A stretch of DNA of 64,000 nt. Origin: Scatophagus argus. Its lineage: Eukaryota; Chordata; Actinopteri; Scatophagidae. A program made the translations under genes and the position numbers. The notes under the pieces were generated by a model. That model saw only the letters and a program-made list of their open reading frames with translations, was not told the DNA's origin and searched no databases. The stretch's first letter is position 1; every line of letters starts with the position of its first letter. This document shows positions 17,726-18,089 of this stretch, piece after piece. The stretch spans positions 10,588,249-10,652,248 of the forward strand of contig NC_058514.1 in assembly GCF_020382885.2 (NCBI RefSeq). Reading direction: 5' to 3'.

Positions 17726-18089
17726 GTTCGCAGTTTATGAATAAAAATGAATAAAGCAGCTATCTTCGTGATGGAGCCAAAGTCATTCAATGTCCCACCG
17801 ACACCACCATTGCAACAACACCCACTGAATGAACGCTAGCCTTTGTGCGGTGTTGGGAGTTGTAGTTCTGCAATGGAGAACAATTACAGATCTGGCCGAG
17901 GAAAAGACTACAGTACAAGTGCTCCGAAAATAACGCGATAGTCATTTTTTCTTGCGCATGCGTAGACGTGTTGGTGACAAGCTACCTTTAGTGAAGTAGA
18001 TTGGTCGATCTCTCCTTGTAACCTTTAACTTACTGCCTGATTTTAAGTCAGTAAGTTAGTCTTTTGTGCCCATCTTTCGTTATTTCACA
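17726..18089. promoter_or_regulatory. bidirectional promoter of dnm1l and stmp1
   Basis: Only 364 bp separate the two start codons, which face apart. GGGAGTTGTAGT at 17855..17866 matches the ZNF143/THAP11-type motif of housekeeping and divergent promoters. TGCGCATGCGTA at 17953..17964 is a near-perfect NRF1 palindrome. No TATA box is evident. Both genes act at mitochondria, so shared NRF1 control is plausible. Transcription start sites were not determined. Confidence 0.75.

Follow-up and report, generated by a model that had tools for sequence, protein, structure and literature searches.

Vertebrate bidirectional promoters lie between head-to-head genes whose starts are less than 1 kb apart, lack a TATA box and retain CpG (PMC4730256, PMC2423431). 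NRF-1 and ACTACAnnTCCC sites are more frequent in such promoters (PMC4730256), and when the 60 human pairs that have orthologues in all seven species compared, down to fish, are sorted by function, the mitochondrion makes up one of four groups, a grouping for which the corrected statistics are weak (PMC2423431). A further point of reference is provided by the M4/SBS2 elements of THAP11, ZNF143 and HCF-1: in SBS2, the ACTACA module, to which THAP11 binds, precedes a Staf/ZNF143 core (PMC5006282, PMC7154149). An inherent bidirectional activity has been ascribed to ZNF143 (Anno 2011, as told in PMC7154149). ZNF143 regulates nuclear mitochondrial genes, and Dnm1l is among the mouse genes lowered by acute ZFP143 depletion (PMC11687419); it has also been speculated to repress fission genes such as FIS1 (PMC11118474), so that in fish an effect could go either way. 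On the promoter of stmp1 the literature searched yielded nothing.

The locus that concerns us is contained in a 64-kb stretch of the Scatophagus argus genome ("the window"; C22:10588249-10652248 in an assembly of 570.7 Mb and 48 contigs). It resembles the described vertebrate promoters in its head-to-head arrangement within 1 kb, its lack of a TATA box, its NRF1 and ACTACAnnTCCC motifs and the mitochondrial character of its genes, and also in a CpG retention that it has in common with part of a dnm1l intron; it differs in that only one of two dnm1l copies is paired and in a GC content below that of classical CpG islands (PMC4730256, PMC2423431). The best reading is that it is a known kind of vertebrate bidirectional promoter joining a pair, dnm1l and stmp1, that we have not met in print: the pairing is undescribed in the titles and opening lines of abstracts among the full-text matches listed, a literature in which subscription journals mostly do not figure.

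The dnm1l/stmp1 pair and the interval between its start codons

The names that the initial annotation had given to the two genes are confirmed. Exons 1 and 2 of dnm1l match a dynamin-1-like protein of the PDB over 78 residues (E 7e-40) as well as Pfam Dynamin_N; the three coding exons of stmp1 are bordered by AG/GT, and their 46-amino-acid product matches PF15054 (DUF4535) at 3.1e-10, exceeding the cut-off. Reading of the sequence likewise upholds the proposed geometry: the start codons diverge, that of dnm1l occupying 17723-17725 on the minus strand (with its A at 17725) and that of stmp1 18090-18092 on the plus strand, and the interval between them is therefore 364 bp (Table 1). This is a head-to-head pair with starts within 1 kb, the 364 bp being a distance between start codons rather than transcription start sites. 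Human STMP1 and DNM1L are on different chromosomes.

Table 1. Features of the dnm1l/stmp1 locus, in window coordinates
Feature	Position	Strand	Basis or remark
dnm1l (Drp1) coding region	7020..17725	-	coding part of exon 1 at 17624-17725; last coding exon near 7020
Interval between start codons: proposed bidirectional promoter and both 5' UTRs	17726..18089	.	ATG positions, CpG, no TATA
Block 2, GGGACATTGAATGACTTTG	17778..17796	-	17/19 to GGGACACCGAATGACTTTG on C7
Overlapping Staf/ZNF143 site, weak	17842..17859	-	14/18 to YWCCCRNMATSCMYYRCR
M4/THAP11-type element, ACTACAACTCCCA	17854..17866	-	oriented with dnm1l; 13/13 to ACTAYRNNNCCCR
NRF1-like palindrome, TGCGCATGCGTA	17953..17964	.	1 mismatch to YGCGCAYGCGCR on either strand
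Inverted repeat/hairpin, probably in the stmp1 5' UTR	18026..18058	+	13-nt arms, 92%
stmp1 coding region	18090..18851	+	exons 18090-18104, 18407-18460 and 18780-18851

At comparable score, the window is the sole place in the whole genome that matches stmp1 exons 2 and 3. Two weaker stmp1-like places, at C12:13541205-13541303 (45% identity) and C10:5852284-5852394 (32%), were rejected as copies of the gene, each being part of a different, longer exon frame. These longer frames look like duplicated genes for the SLC35A4 upstream-ORF microprotein, a likeness that points to shared ancestry with stmp1. Viral contigs, scanned with the dnm1l N-terminus, contained no relative.

The surroundings of the pair deserve brief mention. 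A lysine-rich small ORF (19541-19888, minus strand), presumably smkr1-like, adjoins the 3' side of stmp1; it has no Pfam match, and NCBIfam yielded none either for this ORF at 19.5 kb or for the STRIP-like exon of the window. Between 21.6 and 31.6 kb, a minus-strand gene with OB-fold, RWD and CCCH domains stands head to head with a plus-strand MORN-repeat gene; we assume that these are dhx57-like and morn2-like, respectively.

Three 400-bp windows across 17601-18400 have a CpG observed/expected ratio of 0.75-0.81 (0.376 for the entire 64 kb) at a GC content of only 0.37-0.45, under that of classical CpG islands. The interval is not alone in retaining CpG: a stretch of dnm1l intron at 15001-15600 is equally high or higher (1.02 and 0.79; 15000-22000 was profiled). 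We found no explanation for this intron stretch. The pattern TATA[AT]A[AT] does not occur in 17727-18089, nor do simple patterns for TATA, GC box, ETS, CRE and E-box; the same segment contains one ATTGG (at 18000) and one CCATCTT (at 18070). The hairpin region just upstream of the stmp1 ATG has a fold z of -2.14, and 6 of 200 shuffled sequences fold equally well. Two other sources of promoter-like sequence were considered and set aside. A transposable element around the interval is improbable: when the genome was searched with 17623-18110, in a mode that passes over simple repeats and very common words, only the segment itself and one further place were returned, C7:7844805-7844908, which matches the first coding exon of dnm1l at 85%. 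An snRNA or tRNA promoter is likewise an improbable origin of the Staf-type site: the window has no Rfam match at gathering score.

Two candidate sites within the interval

NRF1 sites are known in nuclear genes for mitochondria, with a consensus of YGCGCAYGCGCR or YGCGCABGCGCR (both were applied here) around the core GCGCATGCG. The palindrome that had been pointed out at 17953-17964 is present: TGCGCATGCGTA is matched once in 64 kb, none of 100 shuffled sequences has a match, and no other place in the window, the dhx57-like/morn2-like head-to-head region at 21.6-31.6 kb included, comes within one mismatch of the NRF1 consensus. Its core is intact, as in the NRF1 sites of nuclear mitochondrial genes, from which it differs in a single mismatch of the outer half-site (GTA for GCR, the one mismatch to YGCGCAYGCGCR); by sequence, then, this is a predicted NRF1 site near the presumed transcription starts. 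In simulated Markov sequences of local composition (n = 200,000, each of 363 bp, to correspond to 17727-18089, one base short of the interval), YGCGCAYGCGCR with at most one mismatch arises at 0.0026 per 363 bp, a chance figure uncorrected for the choice of motif. A 200-kb sample of this genome, made up of twenty 10-kb stretches at hand-picked places (one on each of contigs C1-C20), contains no GCGCATGCG, of which there is one in 80 kb of C7, and eight matches to a looser NRF1 pattern, six of them overlapping within one CG repeat. The sole nrf1 matches found in the genome happen to lie on the chromosome of the pair, about 3.1 Mb off (C22:7448590-7452665).

The second motif, GGGAGTTGTAGT at 17855-17866, had been labelled ZNF143-type. 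It is there, and reads ACTACAACTCCC on the minus strand, but the label fits only one of its halves: the ACTACA/THAP11 half is perfect, its 13/13 score to ACTAYRNNNCCCR being reached by none of 540 random 363-bp windows, whereas the Staf/ZNF143 half is at background, since 327 of the 540 random windows also score at least 14/18 to YWCCCRNMATSCMYYRCR. Set against described M4/SBS2 elements (PMC5006282, PMC7154149), the site accordingly has the perfect ACTAYRNNNCCCR and the ACTACA module, and a degenerate downstream ATGC part of the Staf core. An exact ACTACAANTCCC is expected at 0.000135 per 363 bp (Markov, n = 200,000, likewise uncorrected for motif choice) and is absent from the 200-kb sample; none of the 200,000 Markov sequences contains both ACTACAANTCCC and an NRF1 match with at most one mismatch.

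A second dnm1l without stmp1

The further place found on C7 is a second dnm1l: its exons match those of the first in identical order, and here too a troponin gene comes next (80 kb of C7 were read). Directly upstream, on the same strand and thus in tandem, lies dnajb9 (best PDB match DNAJB9, E 6.9e-34). In the 80 kb around the C7 dnm1l, stmp1 was not found: tblastn yielded only weak matches to lysine-rich stretches (best E 0.27), which were rejected as a copy.

Human counterparts of smkr1, STRIP, dnajb9, pnpla8, nrf1 and nup205 are on 7q. STRIP gene exons are found in the window and nrf1 matches at 7.45 Mb of C22; C7 has Nup192-family (nup205-like) matches at 19.16 Mb and, next to dnm1l, a gene that from its translation we assume to be pnpla8-like. 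With 7q counterparts on both of them, C7 and C22 have the look of sister chromosomes of the teleost genome duplication, a duplication that is itself inferred here. The two regions also have related coding-like fragments, at 56.5-56.9 kb of the window and at C7:7869981-7870232, which resemble a Tc1/mariner-type transposase.

Aligned from their start codons, the C22 and C7 dnm1l promoters have in common two colinear blocks in the same orientation. Block 1, GAACTACAACTCCCA in the window and GAACTCAAACTCCCA on C7, agrees at 13/15 positions; its 12-mer ACTACAACTCCC ends 129 bp before the ATG, and the C7 counterpart ACTCAAACTCCC 149 bp before. The 13/15 match and the 17/19 match of block 2 were reached at 0 of about 399,000 sampled positions (19-mer: 0/399,280), and no 19-mer from the proximal promoter of C22 was matched at 17/19 in any of 2,200 random 180-bp windows. 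By BLASTN alone the 19-mer has an E of 0.006 and the 15-mer 0.9. When the proximal promoters are scored as a whole, with gaps, 14 of 4,400 random windows do at least as well; conservation is therefore confined to the two short blocks.

The two blocks differ in what they hold. Block 1 coincides with the M4-type element, and on C7 the strong and weak halves are exchanged: the matching site scores 16/18 to Staf YWCCCRNMATSCMYYRCR (reached by 6 of 540 random windows), with its ATGC intact, and its ACTACA is broken to ACTCAA, lowering the M4 score to 11/13. (The opposite strand of the C7 promoter has a 12/13 M4 match at another place, a score present in 28 of 540 random windows.) The joined pattern ACTACANNTCCCRNNATGC is matched at 16/19 by the window site and at 17/19 by the C7 site, scores that 8 and 3 of 540 random windows reach. 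Since opposite halves are strong, the two dnm1l copies seem to have retained different halves of a single ancestral site, an ancestral state drawn from two sequences. Block 2 contains an upstream ATG (A at 17786) that opens MTLAPSRR* (17760-17786, minus strand), 61 nt before the main ATG; its C7 counterpart, read by eye, is MTLCPSAAG* (L003:4734-4763, +), 73 nt before. A short upstream ORF is thus possibly conserved between the two copies, and translational control of Drp1 by such an ORF is possible.

The NRF1 palindrome falls outside both blocks and is not found in the C7 dnm1l promoter, where the best match has two mismatches; it is therefore not established as a dnm1l element. The sister copy accordingly lends no support to the suggestion that NRF1 drives dnm1l, even as the palindrome itself stands.

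One promoter or two?

We read the interval as a compact, TATA-less, CpG-retaining bidirectional RNA polymerase II promoter for dnm1l (minus) and stmp1 (plus), and put the probability of this at roughly two in three. A shared promoter for the two genes is likely on this evidence, and the following arrangement can be proposed. The dnm1l-proximal part (about 17726-17866) would be the older promoter of dnm1l, in which an M4/SBS2-type site, serving THAP11 and/or ZNF143 together with HCF-1, precedes a 5' UTR that contains a short upstream ORF. The C7 copy has the same layout, which would therefore predate the split of the copies. The stmp1-proximal part bears the NRF1 palindrome, which is peculiar to the C22 copy and is better assigned to stmp1, or else to the promoter as a shared whole. 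NRF1 at 17953-17964 and THAP11/ZNF143 at 17842-17866 would together keep one region open, from which polymerase could start both ways; the single stmp1 gene found would thereby be switched on together with one of the dnm1l copies, both as housekeeping mitochondrial genes. Start sites, factor occupancy, open chromatin and co-regulation are thus predictions of the model.

How else might the same 364 bp be understood? Two independent, unidirectional core promoters may simply abut, THAP11/ZNF143 serving dnm1l only and NRF1 stmp1 only, with the genes close because a fish genome is compact and with no functional coupling. Two promoters of this kind would look much the same as a shared one. The blocks common to the unpaired C7 dnm1l sit only on the dnm1l side of the interval, and dnm1l on C7 has neither the NRF1 palindrome nor stmp1 beside it, as mere abutment would have it; the GC content of 0.37-0.45, the equally high CpG of the dnm1l intron and the background score of the Staf half also count against a shared promoter. 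Yet a single CpG-retaining stretch covers both first exons, and the two motifs are separated by only 86 bp (17867-17952), which should fit one nucleosome-free region. We consider abutment doubtful, if far from fanciful. That the motifs are chance matches in an interval without special regulation is, in contrast, very improbable. It is true that they come from one genome only, that the Staf half is at background and that the chance figures are uncorrected for motif choice, but those figures are 0.0026 and 0.000135 per interval, with both motifs together in 0 of 200,000 sequences, and an M4-type block is found again at the corresponding position before the C7 dnm1l.

The origin of the pair is a separate question. 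The dnm1l/stmp1 pair may be an ancestral arrangement of bony vertebrates that was lost in mammals and disappeared from C7 after duplication of the chromosome; this reading is compatible with a bidirectional promoter and opposed to the notion of a fish-specific gain. It accords with the presence of both dnm1l copies among genes whose human counterparts are on 7q and with stmp1 having been found once; a later arrival of stmp1 next to one copy, once the two had split, would account for this just as well, however, and we offer an ancestral pair only as a tentative possibility. One can go further and imagine a fission module laid down at the level of DNA: after duplication, the dnm1l promoters would have divided an ancestral SBS2 between them (ACTACA/THAP11 to C22, the ZNF143 half to C7), the C22 copy also sharing an NRF1-bearing bidirectional promoter with stmp1, whose peptide furthers the action of Drp1. 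Were this rather improbable scheme true, biogenesis signals would reach only the C22 dnm1l, and its own activator with it, and the C7 copy would provide constitutive fission.

Why should it matter that these particular genes are neighbours? STMP1 reportedly raises DRP1 and mitochondrial fission, with MYH9 as a partner in its action (Xie 2022, as told in PMC11499885 and PMC11901378). Knockout or knockdown of STMP1 in mouse retina and microglia shifts mitochondria to fusion (PMC9932084, in an account that leaves Drp1 unmentioned). PMC11499885 also states that STMP1 promotes fusion, contradicting the abstract of the study that it cites. In zebrafish, stmp1 knockdown leads to smaller eyes and a lower ventilation frequency (Zhang 2012, as told in PMC12455275). 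(A carp hypoxia paper, PMC9222487, was rejected as a source on stmp1: the protein of that name that it cites is from Coxiella.) Since STMP1 is reported to promote DRP1-dependent fission, a fission-promoting peptide and the fission GTPase may, in this fish and for one of its two dnm1l copies, share one switch.

Two proteins reported to act together in mammals may thus be served here by one short promoter. Comparing the two dnm1l copies separates what was inherited, the M4/ZNF143-type site and the upstream ORF, from what is specific to one copy, the NRF1 palindrome. The unpaired C7 dnm1l offers an internal control for a more general question: does gene pairing couple the expression of functionally linked mitochondrial genes?
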